Origin: a bacterium | GTDB lineage: Bacteria > Patescibacteriota > Microgenomatia > Curtissbacterales > GWA2-41-24 | Length of the DNA: 36,974 nucleotides | Assembly (NCBI GenBank): GCA_021813125.1 | Contig: JAKALT010000010.1 | Span: 1-36,974, forward strand | Direction: 5' to 3' | In this document: in pieces, positions 10,329 through 36,963 of the stretch | Layout: every line of letters starts with the position of its first letter | How positions within the stretch are numbered: position 1 is the first letter of the stretch | The notes under the pieces: model-generated | What the model was told of the DNA's origin: nothing | The model's input: only the letters and a program-made list of their open reading frames with translations | Databases searched by the model: none | Made by a program: the position numbers and the translations under genes

Positions 10329-10375
10329 AAGGTCAGGTCTTAGGCAAACATTTTCCCAACAAAGGCCTGACCTTT
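10329..10375. repeat. Palindromic REP-like element
   Basis: AAGGTCAGGTCTT...AAAGGCCTGACCTTTGTTAG. Confidence 0.8.
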
Positions 10376-17946: not shown

Positions 17947-17994
17947 AAGGTCAGGCCTTTTGCTTGGAATTGGCCGACGCTAAGGCCTGACCTT
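17947..17994. repeat. Palindromic REP-like element
   Basis: AAGGTCAGGCCTT...AAGGCCTGACCTT with interior 'tgcttggaattggccgacgct'. Confidence 0.85.
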
Positions 17995-19231: not shown

Positions 19232-19280
19232 AAGGTCAGGCCTTCTGCTTGGAATGGCGGATGCTAAGGCCTGACCTTTG
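19232..19280. repeat. Palindromic REP-like element (plus half-element AAAGGCCTGGCCTTT near 19303)
   Basis: AAGGTCAGGCCTTCTGCTTGGAATGGCGGATGCTAAGGCCTGACCTT; interior very close to those at 17947 and 31772. Confidence 0.87.
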
Positions 19281-19347
19281 TTAAGTCTCCAGTTTTACTT
19301 TCAAAGGCCTGGCCTTTTTCCTATTAGATCTACTATACTTTTTGGTA

Positions 19348-21856: not shown

Positions 21857-22897
21857 ATGATTGATTTTGCGAAAATTATCGTCCGAGCGGGTGATGGGGG
21901 AAGCGGGTCGGGCTCTTTTGAGCACATTAAAGGGAAGAGGAGAGGAAAGGCGAACGGTGGAGACGGCGGGCGTGGCGGGAATGTTTACCTTGAGGCTACG
22001 AACGACTTAAGCACGCTGGAGCCGTTCAGATTTGTAAAGGAATACAGGGCAGAAAACGGGGGTAGCGGCCTTTCCAAGAAGCGTAAAGGGGCCGAAGGGG
22101 CAGATTATACAGTGCGTGTGCCTGTGGGCACGCAAGCCAAGATCTTAGATGACAGATCTAACATTATAAATGGCAATAAAACATTTACGATCCAGAATCT
22201 AGAACCTAAAGATTATGATCTTGCGGAGCATGGCCACAAAGTTTTGGTTGCGCGAGGCGCAGAAGGTGGCAGGGGGAATTGTCATTTGCGTGATGAATAT
22301 GGACGCCGGCCGTTTAAAGGGGAAGCTGGGGGTCAGGGAGAAGTTTGCGATCTGGTTCTTGAGCTTAAACTGATTGCCCAAGTGGGTCTTATCGGGTTAC
22401 CAAACGCCGGCAAATCTACACTACTTTCCAAGTTAACTTCGGCAAAACCCAAGATTGCCGATTATCCTTTCACAACTCTCGAGCCGAATATAGGGGTAAT
22501 GGATAGAAAGCAGAGACCAGAAGCCAGAGACCAGAGGGTAATTATCGCGGATATTCCGGGTTTGATAGAAGGGGCAAGTGAGGGTAAGGGGCTAGGGGAT
22601 TTGTTTTTGAGGCATATTGAAAGGACCAGGGTTTTGGTGCATTTGGTTGATGCCACGGGTAGTGATGCGTTTGGAAATTACCAGACAATCCGGCAAGAAC
22701 TAAAGGCATACTCCAAGGAACTTGCCAAAAAGCGGGAAATTGTCGCAGTTAACAAAATTGATCTTGCTGAATCTCAGGTTATTGGCCGGATAAAAGGGGA
22801 ATTTAGCGGCAAGAGGAAAAAGGTTTATTTGATATCGGCGGAGACAGGTGAAGGTGTTGACGAGTTGGTACGAGGGATCCTGAAGAGTTTAGGTTAA
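21857..22897 (+). CDS. obgE: GTPase ObgE/CgtA
   Basis: Gly-rich Obg fold 'GDGGSGSGSF...GGDGGRGGNVYLEA', G1 'GLPNAGKST', 'IADIPGLIEGASEGKGLGDLFLRHIERT'. Confidence 0.95.
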   Translation: MIDFAKIIVRAGDGGSGSGSFEHIKGKRRGKANGGDGGRGGNVYLEATNDLSTLEPFRFVKEYRAENGGSGLSKKRKGAEGADYTVRVPVGTQAKILDDRSNIINGNKTFTIQNLEPKDYDLAEHGHKVLVARGAEGGRGNCHLRDEYGRRPFKGEAGGQGEVCDLVLELKLIAQVGLIGLPNAGKSTLLSKLTSAKPKIADYPFTTLEPNIGVMDRKQRPEARDQRVIIADIPGLIEGASEGKGLGDLFLRHIERTRVLVHLVDATGSDAFGNYQTIRQELKAYSKELAKKREIVAVNKIDLAESQVIGRIKGEFSGKRKKVYLISAETGEGVDELVRGILKSLG

Positions 22898-22915: not shown

Positions 22916-23021
22916 AAGGCCAGGCCTTTGCGCTGGCATTTTGCTTTGGGAGAAGTCAACCTACCTCGTACTCAAGGTCAGGTCTTTTTCCATGAATAGG
23001 CTTGGTCAAGGCCTGACCTTT
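22916..23021. repeat. Palindromic REP-like half-element (22916-22928) and full element (22973-23021)
   Basis: AAGGCCAGGCCTT, then AAGGTCAGGTCTT...AAGGCCTGACCTTTGTTAAG. Confidence 0.8.
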
Positions 23022-25432: not shown

Positions 25433-25463
25433 TTTTTAGCTTTTAAGGCCTGGCCTTGAAACG
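25433..25463. repeat. Short palindromic element adjoining the RAYT gene (3' side)
   Basis: TTTTTAGCTTTTAAGGCCTGGCCTTGAAACG. Confidence 0.8.
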
Positions 25464-25521: not shown

Positions 25522-26124
25522 TTAGGATTCGTGGGGAAATATTAAGTGGCTGATATTATCGAAGTATTCCTCTTGGGATTTCACGAACTCTTTATAGGAA
25601 TTTCGTGCCTCATCGAAAGTCCCGTTTTTGGTTTTGAACATAGAAATTACAAATTTGCTTTCTGTGAGATCATCTTCGATTTCTTCAAGATAAGTAGGGT
25701 AACTGCTCCACTTATATGATGGTAGTTTAGTGACAATTTTTGCCGGATTTAGGTGGATGTATCTGGAAAGGTGCATTAAGTACTCGTCGCGGTCTATGAT
25801 TTTGGCTTTAAAACGGTCTTGGAAAATATGCCCTACCTGGCTATATTTTTTATTGAAATACATAGAGTAGGCGGTATGAAGCCTTTGGATGAAGGTACTG
25901 ACCGGCTCCGGACCGTTTTGCCTAACGAGCAGGTGTATATGGTTTGGCATTAGGCAATAGGCGAGTATAGAAATATTATGCTTTTTTCTGTACTCCTTCA
26001 TCTTTTCCAGGTATCGTTTGTAATCTTTATCGGAAAGAAAAATGTTTTGCTTGCGGTTGCCGCGGTTAAAAACATGGTAGAAGCCGCCCTGAATGAAGTT
26101 TGATTGCTGGTTTCTGGTTGCCAT
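25522..26124 (-). mobile_element. REP-associated tyrosine transposase (RAYT, Y1_Tnp / IS200-like superfamily)
   Basis: 'GGFYHVFNRGNRKQNIF', HUH motif 'MPNHIHLLV', catalytic region 'HLSRYIHLNP', 'YKWSSYPTYL'. Flanked on both sides by the GGCCTGGCC palindrome. Confidence 0.9.
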
Positions 26125-26138
26125 AGAGCTATTATAGC

Positions 26139-26166
26139 ACTTTTAGCTTCCAAGGCCTGGCCTTGG
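26139..26166. repeat. Short palindromic element adjoining the RAYT gene (5' side)
   Basis: CTTTTAGCTTCCAAGGCCTGGCCTTGGG. Confidence 0.82.
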
Positions 26167-29111: not shown

Positions 29112-29166
29112 AAGGTCAGGCCTTTAAGTTTTCCAAGGCCTGACCTTGGTTTAGCCTGACCTTAGG
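29112..29166. repeat. Palindromic REP-like element plus half-arm running into the upstream CDS
   Basis: AAGGTCAGGCCTTTAAGTTTTCCAAGGCCTGACCTT followed by TTAGCCTGACCTTAGG. Confidence 0.8.
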
Positions 29167-30048: not shown

Positions 30049-30079
30049 AAGGTCAGTTCCGAAGCAAGGGAAGACCTTT
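30049..30079. repeat. Degenerate palindromic REP-like element
   Basis: AAGGTCAGTTCC...AAGACCTTTG. Confidence 0.55.
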
Positions 30080-30106
30080 GCTGATAATTTACACTACTTT
30101 TGTCTC

Positions 30107-30148
30107 AAGGTCAGGCCTTGGAAAACTGAAAGGCCTGACCTTCGTTAA
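30107..30148. repeat. Palindromic REP-like element
   Basis: AAGGTCAGGCCTTGGAAAACTGAAAGGCCTGACCTTCGTTAAG. Confidence 0.85.
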
Positions 30149-30170
30149 GCTTTCTGCTAGAATTTGGATT

Positions 30171-30971
30171 ATGAAGAAGCCTTTTGTGCTGGCAGTTTTT
30201 CTAACTGTTTGCGCTACCATTTTATTTTATCCGAGGCCCGGTTTTATAGAAGCAGCTTACAAGTTTAATTTTGTGCTTACTTTTTTAGTCTTATTTTTGA
30301 TTTTTTTGCTGATGGCAAATACAAATTCACTAAAAAGAAGCCTTATTTTTTTCGCTCTGTCCGTTTTTATTGCATTTGGCGCTGAGGCAAAGGGAGTAAA
30401 TTTAGACCATAAATTTGTATATGCACCTGTAAACCTTGAATTATTTAGGGTGCCTATTTCAATAATAACTTGGTGGGGGATTTTTATAAGTCTTTGCTAT
30501 TGCTTCACAAATACTTTTTTGGCTTGGACCAAAAATGCTAAACCAAGCCTTTTAAATAAGGGCAGCTTTAAGTTTATACCCCTAATGGTTGTTATAGATG
30601 CACTTCTGGTATCTTCCATAGGTCTTCTTGTCGAGCCTTTGGGGACTTATCTTGGAAACTGGAGATGGTTTTCTAATTCTGCTTATTTTGGGGTTCCTCT
30701 TGCTGATTTCCGGGGTTGGTTTTTGGTTTCAGGGCTTTGCTGTTTAATAATTCGGGTTTTTGAGTATTATTTTCCTGTAAATAAAAAGGCTGATTATTGG
30801 GCACACCTTTTGGTTGTTTTGCTTTTTGCATTTTTAAATTTGAATTTTGCCAGGATTGCTGCCGGCTATGGCTTGACTGGCGTAGCACTAGTGGGGATTT
30901 ATGTTACTTTACCGCTGGTTTTTGTGAATCTGATGCTGTTTTTATACCGCAAGCCTCCGAGTACTAAGTAA
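30171..30971 (+). CDS. Carotenoid biosynthesis-type membrane protein (CruF / Caroten_synth family-like)
   Basis: 'VEPLGTYLGNWRWFSNSAYFGVPLADFRGWFLVSGLCC' resembles the CruF/DUF422 signature (WxWx..YFGVPxxNFxGWF). Likely ATG 30171, not the tracked start 30078. Confidence 0.7.
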   Translation: MKKPFVLAVFLTVCATILFYPRPGFIEAAYKFNFVLTFLVLFLIFLLMANTNSLKRSLIFFALSVFIAFGAEAKGVNLDHKFVYAPVNLELFRVPISIITWWGIFISLCYCFTNTFLAWTKNAKPSLLNKGSFKFIPLMVVIDALLVSSIGLLVEPLGTYLGNWRWFSNSAYFGVPLADFRGWFLVSGLCCLIIRVFEYYFPVNKKADYWAHLLVVLLFAFLNLNFARIAAGYGLTGVALVGIYVTLPLVFVNLMLFLYRKPPSTK

Positions 30972-31045: not shown

Positions 31046-31081
31046 AAGGTCAGGCCTTTAAGTTTTCTAAGGCCTGACCTT
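31046..31081. repeat. Palindromic REP-like element abutting the stop codon of the giant gene
   Basis: AAGGTCAGGCCTTTAAGTTTTCTAAGGCCTGACCTT, then TTA (TAA on the minus strand). Confidence 0.85.
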
Positions 31082-34000
31082 TACTGGGCGCTGCTAATTT
31101 GTTTCGTATTAACAATGAGCCAGTCGAAGGAAATTGGGGTTAGTGCCGGCGCGGTGCTGTCGACTGTTACCGTAAAGCCTTCAAAGTCGGACTTTGCCGA
31201 AACGTACAATTGGCGACCGCCGGTTGGAGTTGTCGGTGTAATCAGGATTTTGGCATTAGGTTCCAGTGCGGATGTAAAGACGGTGACCAGGTGCTGGTTT
31301 GCCGGTAATAATGCCGAGCCGACGGTCTTGGCGTTGGGATCGGAGGCATCGATGGTTATGCTCTTGGTCTCTACTTTTTCTGCCGTTATTATGCCTTGGA
31401 CGTTGAGGTTGCCGTGTTTGTCGAATGTTGCTTTGCCGCCGCCGATATCAACCAGAATACCGTTTTCCAGGTTGCCGGCAAACGGATCGTTTTGCAGGTA
31501 GAGGGTTGAACCTAAGACGTTTAACTGTTTGCCGTAGTCGATTATGAAAGTCCCATCCTGGCTAAATGTTCCGGCAACTTGAGTTTGGGCAAGTTGAGTG
31601 TTTCCAGAAACACTCAGAGTGTCAAGTGATAAGTGAGTAGTGGATAGTAGCTCGGTTAGCTTGTTTAGGGTGGCGGTAGTCTGGTCGATGATGGCTTCTC
31701 CGCTTGCGATGGCTGCCGATGTTGTGGCTTCTGCGGAACTTGAGGCTTCGGCTGAACCTGTCGCCTCACCCAAGGTCAGGCCTTCTGCTTGGGAACCGGC
31801 ATTGGCTAAGGCCTGACCTTCCGCCGGGACAGGAGCGGCTATTTGCTGACTGCTGACTGCTGACTGCTGACTGCTGGCCAGAATTTGGCCGACCTGTTTG
31901 GTGACTTCGTCGGCGACGAGTTTCTTTATTTGGTCGTTGTTCATGGTTGATGGTTCATGGTTAGTAGTTTGTGAGCTTGCTAAAGTACCGTCGGGGTTGG
32001 TGACCGTGATTAAGGCCAGGCCTTTTTGCCCGGAACCGGCAGACGCTAAGGCCTGGCCTTGAGCGTTGACAGCATTCATTGAGCCGTTTTGGGCAAGAGC
32101 AGAACCTAGGTACCAGCCGGGTTCGACGAAGACAGTGATGGTAGAGGTAGCAAAAGTATCAGGTGTATCAAAAGTATCAAAGGGTTCTAGGGCAATACCA
32201 ATGATTCTGCCTGCCTGGGTTGCTTTCATGCCCACACCGGGTGTAGAGGATGACGTAATCGGGTCGCCGGCTTTGATTGCGCCGTTTTCCAAAGATACTT
32301 TGGCAGGGACACGGCCGGCCAAGGCCAGTGGTTTGCCGCCGGCTTCCTGTGAATTCAAAGTGACGCCCGGAGCGGTTGAGATTATGCCCAGAAGGGTGTT
32401 CTGGTATGGCGAAGTAGATTTAATGACGTTCTGGGCGTTTGCGGGGTCAACGGCAACGATATCGCCTTCCGCAATTGAACTGTCGGCGGTTGGGAACTTT
32501 TCGGCCAAGTCGGCAGTGTGGCCGGTGTCGAAGGCATCGGCATAGACGGTGCCATTTACAGGGTTGGCAATTGAGCAGCTGCCGTTGTTGTTGACGCAGA
32601 TGTAGCCGTTGGTGACATTTAAGCTGGCGCCTGCGGCACTCAAAGTTTGGTTACCCTTCGAGTCAATCTTTATCAGCTCATTGCCCAGGGAATCTGTTAT
32701 CGAAAGCTTGTTGGTGCCTGCATTGTCGCCTAGAGCAACTGATAGATTTTGGTTTGCCGGAGCGGCAATTGAGCTTGCAGTCAGTTTGCCTGTAACAGTT
32801 AGGTTACCTGCCGCAGTTATGTTCTGGGCGGTAACATTGCCTGTTGCGTCGACCCCAAATTGTCCGCCGGCAACAGAAAGCGTACCGGCTGTTGCGACGT
32901 TCCCAAGTGCATCGATTGTAGTATTGCCGCCGCCCGCTGTTATTGCACCTGCGGTAATTAGGTTTCCGCCAGCATCAATTGTCATGCTGCCGGAAGCGGT
33001 CGAGAAACTCTTGGCGTTCAGGTTAAGGTCAGCATACTGAGTTCTTGCATCCGGACGCATCTCGGTTCCGACCTGCATTGTTATTTGGCCTTGGCCTGGG
33101 CCACTGAAGGCGCTTAAGGCTTTACCGATTGTTGTGCCAAACCTTGGGTCTGCCTTCATAGCAACGCCCGGAGTGGAGGAAGCAGTCAGCAGATCGCCGA
33201 TGGCAATCGGGCCGTTTTCGTCATTGACGTTAACAGGGACACGTCCGGCAAGTGCCATGCGGACGGACTGGCCGTTGTCAGTCCCATACGTTTGGGCAGG
33301 GTTTGTGGAAACGACACCTATTAGGCTTTGGTCATAGGAAGTTGTTGACTTCTGGACGGTTACAGGCTGGGCCGAGTTTAGGCTCAAGACATCACCCGGC
33401 ATCGGTGCGGTTCCGGCATACGGTACCCATTCGGCCAAGTCGAAGGTGTCCGAGCCTCCTGCGGTTGCAGAATTAACCGAAACAACCCTCCAGGCGCCAT
33501 TGATGTAAGCAACAGTGTAGCTTTCGGTAGCCGTTGTACCCAGCGTAGAATTTGCAAGTGTGCTAACGGTGCTTCCGTTTATATTGACAGTTATTGTTAG
33601 GGTACCGGCATTACAACCGCTGTTTGTGGCTTTTGTGACTACATAGGCGAAGGTCCCTTCCGTATTTGGTATTCCTGTAATATTAAAAGTCCTTGTACCG
33701 TTTGTGCTACAGTTTGCGGTGCCACCTGCAGTTGCTGTTGATTGAATGTAATAAGCCAGACTGCCACCTGAAATTGTCGTTGTACCTGCGCCGGGATCTG
33801 TTACTGCCGTAGTAGTAACATTTCCGTTCCAGGCACCGTTTCCGGTTGAGATGGCGTAGTTAGTTGTTGACCCGGTGACTGCACCAATAAGCAAGCCGTA
33901 GTTGGTGGTTCCTGCCCCCGAAATGGCGCCGATGTTGATTCCGTAGTTAGTTGTAGCGGTTGAGGTGTTTGCACCAATGGTCATGCCGTACGAGGTTGTG

Positions 34001-36963
34001 CCTGCGCCGGAAATGGCACCTAAGTTGATGCCGCCGAAAGTGGCGCTGGCAGCACCCGCGATTGTGCTTGTTGCGTACTGCCAACCTACGCCTGAACTTC
34101 CTGCGGTAATGGCGTTTCCGAAGATACCATAATTATTGTCGGCTCCCGAGGCTACTGTATAGGCACCATAGGCATTGCTTAGACCACCGGTGTCGCCTGT
34201 TGCCTTGAAGTAGCCGCCGTAGGTATTCGGTCTTGTTTTAGTGCCGGTATCAGGAGAGCCTGTAATGCTTGATATGCCACTTACACCAACTGCGAGGTCG
34301 TTAGCACCTACACTTGGCGTGAAGTTGTCGGCGCCTGTCTTGGTGACTAAGTTATATGAGCCGTAATAGTTAAATGACCGGCTGTTTGTGGCAGTAGTGT
34401 TGGTGCTGGTTGCTGTAAATGAATTGTAAATACCATATTCTGTGTGGGTGACATCGGAAAGTGAAGAGTCTGTGTAATTGAGGTTGAGGCCGTAGGCGTT
34501 AACAGCGCTGTTGACGGTATTTATTTGTAGTGTGCCGTTGGCTTGGGTGTTGGTGGTTGTTGAGGCATCGATTAAGACGTTGTCGCCTGCAGCCAGGACA
34601 TTCTTGATATTGCCGGCTGCTGTGTAGAGGGCGTAGTTATTGTTGGCGCCGGCGGCAGTTGAGTAAACGCCGTAAGCAGTGGTGGTGCCGGCTGTTGCTC
34701 CGGTTGCATTGAAATAGCCACCATAAGTGTTCCTGATTCCGGCAAGACCTGAATCGGTGTTGATATTTGATGCATTAACATAGGCACCGTAAATGTTTTG
34801 TGTTCCTGATCCGAATGCTACGAAATTGTCCGCTGCATTAAGGCTAATCGAACTATAAATGTTGTAGTAATTGGTTGGGTTGGTGTTCCCGGCAACATGG
34901 CTTGTGTTGTTGGTGAAAGCGGAATATATGCCATATTGATCCTCAACGCTATTACCTGTGGAGGTGTAATTAAAGCTGGCGCCGGTGTTGCCGTCAGTTA
35001 ACGATTTGCTGTTGACATAGAGGCTTGCAGTTGTTGTTGTAGTGTTGGTGCCAATTGCCGTGGTGTTGTCTATGGTGACAAAGTCTGTTACACCAAGGAT
35101 GTTTTTGATTTTACCTGCCGTGGTGTAGAGGGCGTAGTTTGAAGTGGCTGTTGTTGCCGATGCGACTATGCCGTAATTGTTGGTTGCCCCCGAAACGTTG
35201 CCTGTAAAGATTCCGTAATTAGCAGTTGTTGCGGATGAAATGGCTTCGACGCTTATGCCGAAGTTGTTGTCGCCGCCGGAGGCAGTTGCAGCTAGGCCAT
35301 AAGCGTTTCCGGTGCCGGAAGTTGTGCCGACTCCCTTAAAGTAACCGCCGTAGCTGTTGGCGGATGAGCCGCCGCCCGCGCTTTCGGTTGCCAGGCTGTA
35401 GACACCATAAAGGTTTTTGGTGCCGGTGGTGGCTGCTGCAGACTGGGCGAGAGTGATGTAGCTTCCATATATAGTATCTGCTGTTGTGGAGGAAGAAGTG
35501 ACTGTTGAAAAGTTTCCGAAGGCGACTTTTGCAGCGTTGCCGGAAAGGGCGACAGAAGTATAGTTGCCGTAGTCGGTGTTGGTATTGGCGGTGGAATCCG
35601 TTGCTGCCATATAAGTGCCATAGCCTGTGACACCGTTGCCGGTGAAGCCAGGGTTAAGGCTTAAGAGTGATGCACCCGAGCCAATTGCCGAAGTTAGCTT
35701 AACCAGTGCGTTGGTGGTGATGCCTGTTGAAGCCGGGCCGGTAAGACTCATGAGAATTCCAGTTGTCAGATTTGCACCGCTAAATGTCCAGAGGTTTTGG
35801 GTGTTGGCCGTTGAAGAGCTGAATGTTGTGGTATTTGTGAGCATGTCCAGTGATAGATTAGTGTTTGGTGCTGCGATTTGGTCCCACCTGAGGCCGCTGG
35901 CACAGCCGGTACAGGAAGAAACAGTTAGCGCGCCGTTAACGAATGTAGCACCATTGAAGTAGCCGGCATAGTTGGTTGAAGCCCCGCTGGCAGATCCGTA
36001 GACGCCATAAGCTGTAGATGTTCCATAAGTATCACCGGTTGCCGAGAAGTAACCGCCGTAGGTATTCTTGGTAACAGTACCGGCACCACCGTTAGTATTT
36101 GAAGCAATACCGTAAGTTGCAAAGAGGTTGCTGGTTGCAGAGGAATTATCTGCACCGGTTTTAGTGAGGGCGCTGTAGTTGCCGTAAATACTTTGAGTAC
36201 CGGAAGTTAAGGCAGTTGATGAAGCCCAGTTGTTGTAGATGCCATACTGGGTTGCGCCGGCACTCTGGGTATTGGAGGTTGTGATTGCCAAGACTCCACC
36301 CGTAGTAGTACTGGCAGTCGTTGAGGCGTCTATATATATTTGATCACCTGCCGACAAGACATTTCTAATGTTGCCGGCGGAAGTGTAAAGGGCGTAGTTA
36401 CTAGCGGCCGAAGTGACTGTTGAGAAGATTCCGTAGTTAGTGGTACCACCGCTGGCGGCAGTAGCGTAAAGGCCGGTGGCGATGTCACCGTTTGTGGCAG
36501 AGGCGTAAGCGCCGTAAGTGCTGGCGGTACCGTTGGTGTCACCGGTTGCGGAGAAGACGCCTGCATAGGTTGTATGGGTGCCGAAGTTACCCGAACCGGT
36601 ATTGGAAGCGCTTCCATAGACTCCGTAGCTGGTAACCGTGCCGCCGGTGTCACTACCGGTTTTGGTAACGGCAGTGTAGTCGCCGTAATAGAACGGAGTG
36701 GTGGATGCAACGGCACCGGTTGCAGTGTAGGTGTTGTAGACGCCGTATTGGCTGGTGTTACCAATGTTAGAGGTGCGGGATATTACGGATAGGACGCCTG
36801 CTGTGCCGGTATTGACGGTTGTTGAAGCGTCGATAGCGACGTTGTCAGAAGCACCAAGGACGTTTTTAATGTTGCCGTTTGCTGTATATAAGGCGTAGTT
36901 TTTGGAAGCGGAGGCAACGTTTCCGTAGATGGCAAAGTTATTGGTAGCTCCAGAGGCGGCCAA
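31081..36963 (-). CDS. Giant repeat-rich tail-fibre/adhesin-like surface protein (5' end outside the window)
   Basis: 1,960-aa open frame reaching the window edge. Recurrent 'YGGYFSATGDT..GTSTAYGVY..ASGA..NYALYTAAGNIKNVLAAGDN' units and two copies of a 'DLAE..P..GD(V/I)...STPGV.MKA' domain. Confidence 0.85.
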   Translation of the reverse strand: MAASGATNNFAIYGNVASASKNYALYTANGNIKNVLGASDNVAIDASTTVNTGTAGVLSVISRTSNIGNTSQYGVYNTYTATGAVASTTPFYYGDYTAVTKTGSDTGGTVTSYGVYGSASNTGSGNFGTHTTYAGVFSATGDTNGTASTYGAYASATNGDIATGLYATAASGGTTNYGIFSTVTSAASNYALYTSAGNIRNVLSAGDQIYIDASTTASTTTGGVLAITTSNTQSAGATQYGIYNNWASSTALTSGTQSIYGNYSALTKTGADNSSATSNLFATYGIASNTNGGAGTVTKNTYGGYFSATGDTYGTSTAYGVYGSASGASTNYAGYFNGATFVNGALTVSSCTGCASGLRWDQIAAPNTNLSLDMLTNTTTFSSSTANTQNLWTFSGANLTTGILMSLTGPASTGITTNALVKLTSAIGSGASLLSLNPGFTGNGVTGYGTYMAATDSTANTNTDYGNYTSVALSGNAAKVAFGNFSTVTSSSTTADTIYGSYITLAQSAAATTGTKNLYGVYSLATESAGGGSSANSYGGYFKGVGTTSGTGNAYGLAATASGGDNNFGISVEAISSATTANYGIFTGNVSGATNNYGIVASATTATSNYALYTTAGKIKNILGVTDFVTIDNTTAIGTNTTTTTASLYVNSKSLTDGNTGASFNYTSTGNSVEDQYGIYSAFTNNTSHVAGNTNPTNYYNIYSSISLNAADNFVAFGSGTQNIYGAYVNASNINTDSGLAGIRNTYGGYFNATGATAGTTTAYGVYSTAAGANNNYALYTAAGNIKNVLAAGDNVLIDASTTTNTQANGTLQINTVNSAVNAYGLNLNYTDSSLSDVTHTEYGIYNSFTATSTNTTATNSRSFNYYGSYNLVTKTGADNFTPSVGANDLAVGVSGISSITGSPDTGTKTRPNTYGGYFKATGDTGGLSNAYGAYTVASGADNNYGIFGNAITAGSSGVGWQYATSTIAGAASATFGGINLGAISGAGTTSYGMTIGANTSTATTNYGINIGAISGAGTTNYGLLIGAVTGSTTNYAISTGNGAWNGNVTTTAVTDPGAGTTTISGGSLAYYIQSTATAGGTANCSTNGTRTFNITGIPNTEGTFAYVVTKATNSGCNAGTLTITVNINGSTVSTLANSTLGTTATESYTVAYINGAWRVVSVNSATAGGSDTFDLAEWVPYAGTAPMPGDVLSLNSAQPVTVQKSTTSYDQSLIGVVSTNPAQTYGTDNGQSVRMALAGRVPVNVNDENGPIAIGDLLTASSTPGVAMKADPRFGTTIGKALSAFSGPGQGQITMQVGTEMRPDARTQYADLNLNAKSFSTASGSMTIDAGGNLITAGAITAGGGNTTIDALGNVATAGTLSVAGGQFGVDATGNVTAQNITAAGNLTVTGKLTASSIAAPANQNLSVALGDNAGTNKLSITDSLGNELIKIDSKGNQTLSAAGASLNVTNGYICVNNNGSCSIANPVNGTVYADAFDTGHTADLAEKFPTADSSIAEGDIVAVDPANAQNVIKSTSPYQNTLLGIISTAPGVTLNSQEAGGKPLALAGRVPAKVSLENGAIKAGDPITSSSTPGVGMKATQAGRIIGIALEPFDTFDTPDTFATSTITVFVEPGWYLGSALAQNGSMNAVNAQGQALASAGSGQKGLALITVTNPDGTLASSQTTNHEPSTMNNDQIKKLVADEVTKQVGQILASSQQSAVSSQQIAAPVPAEGQALANAGSQAEGLTLGEATGSAEASSSAEATTSAAIASGEAIIDQTTATLNKLTELLSTTHLSLDTLSVSGNTQLAQTQVAGTFSQDGTFIIDYGKQLNVLGSTLYLQNDPFAGNLENGILVDIGGGKATFDKHGNLNVQGIITAEKVETKSITIDASDPNAKTVGSALLPANQHLVTVFTSALEPNAKILITPTTPTGGRQLYVSAKSDFEGFTVTVDSTAPALTPISFDWLIVNTKQISSAQ
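31772..31820. repeat. Palindromic REP-like element inside the giant CDS, in-frame
   Basis: AAGGTCAGGCCTTCTGCTTGGGAACCGGCATTGGCTAAGGCCTGACCTT, translated on the minus strand as EGQALANAGSQAEGLTL. Confidence 0.88.
31843..31878. repeat. Heptanucleotide tandem repeat (GCTGACT)n within the giant CDS
   Basis: GCTGACT x4 then GCTGGCC; encodes the 7-residue periodic peptide SSQQSAV-SSQQ. Confidence 0.85.
32012..32060. repeat. Second palindromic REP-like element inside the giant CDS, in-frame
   Basis: AAGGCCAGGCCTTTTTGCCCGGAACCGGCAGACGCTAAGGCCTGGCCTT, translated as QGQALASAGSGQKGLAL. Confidence 0.87.

Follow-up and report, generated by a model that had tools for sequence, protein, structure and literature searches.

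Two palindromes read in frame within a protein-coding gene of a member of the Patescibacteria are very probably REPIN-like non-autonomous elements that are mobilized in trans by a REP-associated tyrosine transposase (RAYT), and whose copies persist as translated peptides where they keep the reading frame and fall in loops. REPINs are REP doublets that form hairpins and are associated with RAYTs (PMC3116915, PMC8049555). The initial annotation of the window, the 36,974-nt contig stretch analysed here, had proposed that REP palindromes were captured in frame in a single gene. The proposal is supported, and many conserved genes prove to hold such copies too.

The source genome (G000) is 1.04 Mb. 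Element counts for G000 cover sampled stretches totalling 697 kb, about two thirds of the genome, and apply to this sample alone. The paired-arm pattern was screened in 94 genomes, G000 included, and the genomes compared are metagenome-assembled, as far as their titles show. They include a sister species in the same genus (G001), a member of another genus (G007) and a member of another family (G086). A simple ORF caller was used. The names of genes hosting coding copies rest on sequence recognition; those of LepA, the CCA-adding enzyme (CCA), RecF, FolD and PriA are backed by PDB matches, and a PDB match by sequence was not found for ThyX. In some family searches, several proteins joined by runs of X were used as one query, and the matches were checked by translating the loci.

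The two copies and their host gene are as follows.

31081 to 36963, minus strand: host CDS (ORF) of 1960 aa, without a Pfam match
31772 to 31820, minus strand: in-frame REPIN-like element of 49 bp, read as EGQALANAGSQAEGLTL
32012 to 32060, minus strand: in-frame REPIN-like element of 49 bp, read as QGQALASAGSGQKGLAL

The first consists of AAGGTCAGGCCTT, 23 nt and AAGGCCTGACCTT, and the second of AAGGCCAGGCCTT, 23 nt and AAGGCCTGGCCTT. Both lie without stops in one phase of the ORF, as originally described. The suggestion that copies use a common reading frame is correct for this pair but not as a trait of the family, as all three phases are found among the in-frame copies across G000.

The general form of the element is an arm, AAGGNCWGNCCTT (13 nt), followed by a variable spacer (20-23 nt) and then by the arm's reverse complement, giving a total of 46-49 bp. 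A second size class of 36 bp has a 10-nt spacer close to GGAAAACTGA. There are 48 elements in the 697 kb of G000, and variants of the arm are the commonest 13-mers in this sample, the top two occurring in 41 and 24 copies. In the whole genome, the paired-arm pattern has 37 exact matches and the reversed control has none. Four complementary pair types are found at arm position 5, where 45 of the 48 pairs are complementary. Over the three variable positions (5, 7 and 9), 136 of 144 pairs are complementary, compared to a shuffle maximum of 117, and these compensatory changes are those of a conserved hairpin stem. As in REPINs, two inverted REPs thus surround a short, diverse spacer, mostly unique to each copy, in a predicted hairpin with compensatory changes.

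The majority of the G000 copies are intergenic, and 10 of the 48 are inside CDSs. The other elements in the window are listed below.

10329 to 10374: intergenic element of 46 bp, from the paired-arm survey
17947 to 17994: intergenic element sharing the spacer subfamily of the two coding copies, from spacer comparison
19232 to 19278: intergenic element sharing the spacer subfamily of the two coding copies, from spacer comparison
19266 to 19316: chain of arms overlapping the element at 19232 to 19278, from the pattern search
22974 to 23020: intergenic element of 47 bp, from the paired-arm survey
29112 to 29147: intergenic element of the 36-bp class, from the pattern search
30107 to 30142: element of the 36-bp class, located where ORF 30078-30971 begins; the true start codon probably lies downstream of it
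31046 to 31081: element of the 36-bp class directly next to the host CDS stop codon, from the pattern search

The claimed kinship of the coding copies with the intergenic copies at 17947 and 19232 holds, because the spacers of all four match one another best, above the 99th percentile of shuffles. Coding status was rejected for the element at 30107 and for an edge case at L018 3922, where start codons are probably wrongly assigned. We also rejected the idea that the elements are pre-adapted to coding, as intergenic copies have 2.46 open frames of six and random intergenic 47-mers have 2.28. An arm variant of the form AAGGGC...GCCCTT (18 copies of its 13-mer; L015, L018, L026 and L028 of G000) was not found in any CDS within the sample.

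Among the 94 genomes, the pattern is abundant only in G000, G001 and G086; G008 has four copies, and three further genomes have one match each. The 13 elements in G086 have the arm AAGGCCAGGCCTT, as in G000, but their spacer is conserved (AAAACGGCTTGGCC...), unlike the drifting spacers of G000. Two G086 elements called as coding were excluded as N-terminal and probably spurious.

The window also includes a RAYT gene, flanked on both sides by single arms.

25522 to 26124, minus strand: RAYT, Y1_Tnp, with HUH and Tyr conserved (Pfam and alignment)
25445 to 25457: single REP arm on the 3' side of the RAYT gene
26152 to 26164: single REP arm on the 5' side of the RAYT gene

The ORF matches Y1_Tnp (Pfam, E=1.4e-17), and H62, H64 and Y122 are invariant in seven relatives. 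Both flanking arms have one orientation in G000, and this arrangement of single arms on the two sides recurs at the orthologs of G001 (79 % identity), G008 (67 %), where one flank has one mismatch, and UBA10118 (71 %). The flanking arm of the UBA10118 RAYT is the GGGC variant, i.e. the AAGGGC...GCCCTT type of G000. Many relatives have RAYTs but not the AAGGNCWGNCCTT arm family, and more distant RAYTs have other short palindromes as flanks. A GTAG/CGTC tag at the end of the palindrome was not found in G000, where the doublets are untagged and GGAAGCTAAAA follows the single arms beside the RAYT; only the distant G081 RAYT has a GTAG-like tag. In several other Patescibacteria, RAYTs at L174, L180, L185, L188, L192 and L220 adjoin palindromes that fit the more general form AAGGNCNGNCCTT, an indication that the phylum has a broad class of arms. 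G024, G032 and G092 each contain 20-31 RAYT-like matches, compared to a single copy in the window genome.

The two inverted 13-nt REP arms and the short spacer can fold as a hairpin in single strands, and the elements would be mobilized in trans by the cognate RAYT, the gene of which lies between single arms. Most surviving copies are intergenic, and copies in genes would persist if the net insertion keeps the frame and hits a flexible loop or linker, where they would be translated as loop peptides, also in conserved proteins.

The refuting condition set in the initial annotation, one peptide at one position in all orthologs across distant lineages, did not appear in this comparison, as carriage varies at both sites in the window protein. 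At the 31772 site, G001 has one arm only (36 nt shorter and still in frame), whereas the element is complete in two G008 paralogs and missing from G004. At 32012 the element is common to G000 and G001 and absent from G008 and G004; the armless linkers of the latter are about as long as the G000 linker, and this element is therefore not a simple added segment. A further element in the same protein is found only in G001, where G000 has the repeat-like peptide FDTFDTPDTF.

The ten in-frame copies within true CDSs of the G000 sample are in nine genes, several of them probably essential: LepA, CCA, RecF, PriA, ThyX, FolD, CysS, a glycosyltransferase (GT) and, twice, the window protein. Family alignments within the same Patescibacteria family include insert-free orthologs for LepA, CCA, RecF, PriA, ThyX, FolD and GT. 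In G001, copies occupy the corresponding positions of CCA, FolD, PriA, RecF, ThyX and CysS, including chains of arms in FolD (five arms), PriA and ThyX (several), and the GT copy is absent. In G008, LepA contains an element at the position found in G000. A clean pair of empty and filled sites with exact junctions or a target duplication was not found among the orthologs compared. Judged from these alignments, carriage tracks the genomes that own a matching RAYT/REP pair and not an ancestral domain sequence. The CCA enzyme was modelled with AlphaFold2 (14 sequences, mean pLDDT 69); the insert is placed between strands 125-128 and 150-153 and most of it has a pLDDT below 50, so that the peptide is predicted to sit in a low-confidence loop.

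Other repeats also occur in coding sequences. The heptamer repeat (CCAGAGA)n is mostly within CDSs in the G000 sample (10 of 13 copies of one 13-mer) and encodes PETRDQ-like peptides, as in the L041 FolD (PETRDQ) and ObgE at 21857-22897 of the window (RPEARDQ). HEPSTMNN, SSQQSAVSSQQ and FDTFDTPDTF are other repeat-like peptides in conserved proteins.

Divergence was examined for six coding elements common to G000 and G001, the G001 copies having been found by protein orthology and not by the arm pattern. The arms differ at 4 of 156 sites, the spacers of the 48-bp class at 48 of 108 and the flanks at 89 of 456 (66 of 152 at third codon positions). The difference between arms and flanks (Fisher p=1.2e-8) is only indicative, as sites within an element are not independent and the flanks were hand-chosen. 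The CCA spacers differ at 12 of 20 positions between the two genomes, and insertions at this site may have been independent. Arm DNA in coding copies is thus nearly frozen while the spacers drift. As conservation at synonymous sites is not explained by selection on the peptide, we infer that the most likely cause is continued recognition or re-copying of the hairpin.

A second, independent system was found in G007. The FolD loop that is filled in G000 holds a different palindrome in this genome, one of 18 doublets with the arm CACCCCNGGGGTG. These are 46-49 bp with compensating centre bases, and have the architecture of the G000 elements but an unrelated arm. A G007 RAYT (36 % identical to that of the window) is flanked on both sides by CACCCCTGGGGTG, so that in this system too the cognate RAYT is flanked by the same REP. 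Eleven of the 18 doublets are in frame within genes, read as GAPDH, CysS, ClpC, RF1, PurL, Fmt, FolD, a TrmH-like methyltransferase and three others, and orthologs of five of these genes have element-free sites. The L286 and L284 copies were discounted as coding on grounds like those for the two G086 calls. All 11 in-frame doublets have lengths of 1 mod 3, compared to 2 of the 7 others (p=0.0025), as selection for frame predicts provided that every insertion adds 2 nt (mod 3). The coding copies of G000 do not follow this rule, perhaps because they are older.

Further fillers of the same loops were seen. The LepA loop of G010 contains another palindrome, found at approximately 8-11 places in that genome, and the RecF and ThyX loops of G004 contain hairpin-forming sequences of their own. 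The G004 hairpin pattern has only six matches in the genome and one control match, which makes this case weaker.

Against RAYT-dependent mobilization, the peptides could be ancestral sequence of a repetitive protein that resembles palindromes by chance or through internal duplication. The length and internal repetition of the window protein and the likeness of its two spacers would fit this, but it is highly improbable given that the same 13-nt arms are found in eight unrelated CDSs and at dozens of intergenic sites, that orthologs lack the arms and that the arms are conserved at synonymous sites. It is also unlikely, though less so, that the host has recruited the elements, either as useful loops or as DNA or RNA hairpins (acting, for instance, on supercoiling, on the stability of mRNA or on pausing in translation), with the arms under host selection. 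Nearly frozen arms within genes would be expected of such a role, as would the retention of the RecF, PriA, ThyX, CCA, FolD and CysS copies in both species of the genus. However, other genera fill the same loops with unrelated palindromes or with none, the genus has both gained and lost copies, and arms of two unrelated sequences follow one pattern.

Spread of the arms without transposition, by slippage, template switching or hairpin gene conversion, would make the RAYT neighbourhood incidental. Local growth of this kind is suggested by the arm chains in single genes of G001 (FolD, ThyX and PriA) and by the site with a single arm in G001 and a doublet in G000. As a full account it is slightly less likely again than host recruitment, because in two independent systems the arm flanking the RAYT is the arm dispersed in the genome, and this match is as in known REP/RAYT pairs (PMC3116915; PMC2817692). 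Mobilization by the RAYT followed by persistence in loops remains the favoured reading. A stronger version, in which RAYT/REPIN systems with unrelated arms have, in this family of Patescibacteria, repeatedly and independently built identical loops of essential enzymes, and in which ongoing RAYT-dependent re-copying or conversion preserves the arm DNA inside genes, is offered tentatively, as we consider it rather doubtful.

The elements resemble REPIN/RAYT systems in their inverted REPs, short diverse spacer, compensatory stem changes and single-copy, REP-flanked cognate RAYT. They differ in arm sequence and total length, and in location: known REPINs lie almost entirely outside genes, with 14 of 1,067 16-mers overlapping genes in SBW25 (PMC3116915, PMC8049555), compared to the 10 of 48 elements in G000 and 11 of 18 in G007. 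Intragenic GTAG/CGTC REPs and REP dimers, often in replication or repair genes, were reported in 2013 for Opitutus terrae, Rickettsia conorii, Thauera and others, and two Xanthomonas species have different REPs at approximately the same recB site (PMC3733652). REPs and dimers within known genes, and the reuse of about one site by different REPs, are shared with our systems, whereas the G000 arms have no tag directly at the palindrome and the hosts are Patescibacteria. Beyond that study, the present analysis measured how arms and spacers evolve within genes, in G000 and G001.

The initial annotation had likened the window copies to Rickettsia palindromic elements (RPEs), palindromes of approximately 105-150 bp that a reduced genome carries in frame within many conserved genes unrelated to one another (PMC10969869, PMC2229807). 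The likeness holds for this in-frame tolerance across unrelated conserved genes but not for type, as the G000 elements are RAYT-linked REP doublets of 46-49 bp, about one third of the RPE length. The G000 element therefore appears to work like an RPE but is not classed as one. The principle is already known from intragenic REPs (PMC3733652) and, earlier, RPEs (PMC10969869, PMC2229807). Literature searches for RAYT with Patescibacteria returned chance word matches only, and those for Curtissbacteria with palindromic returned nothing. To judge from this literature, new features are the host group, the arm families, the large fraction of copies in genes, the independent systems in one FolD loop and the nearly frozen coding arms.

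Mobile DNA is normally purged from essential genes, above all in reduced genomes. Here, two unrelated element families supply predicted loops in enzymes of translation, replication, repair and central metabolism, and the same loops are filled differently across lineages. The main interest lies in this recurrent use of the same loops and in the frozen arms: the arms evolve at a lower rate than neighbouring third codon positions, so that selection acting on DNA hairpins can here be told apart from selection acting on peptides. It makes testable how REP/RAYT populations persist and what share of protein loop variation in Patescibacteria is repeat-derived. If upkeep of the arms does depend on the RAYT, a mobile element, rather than protein-level selection, would be what preserves part of each such coding sequence.
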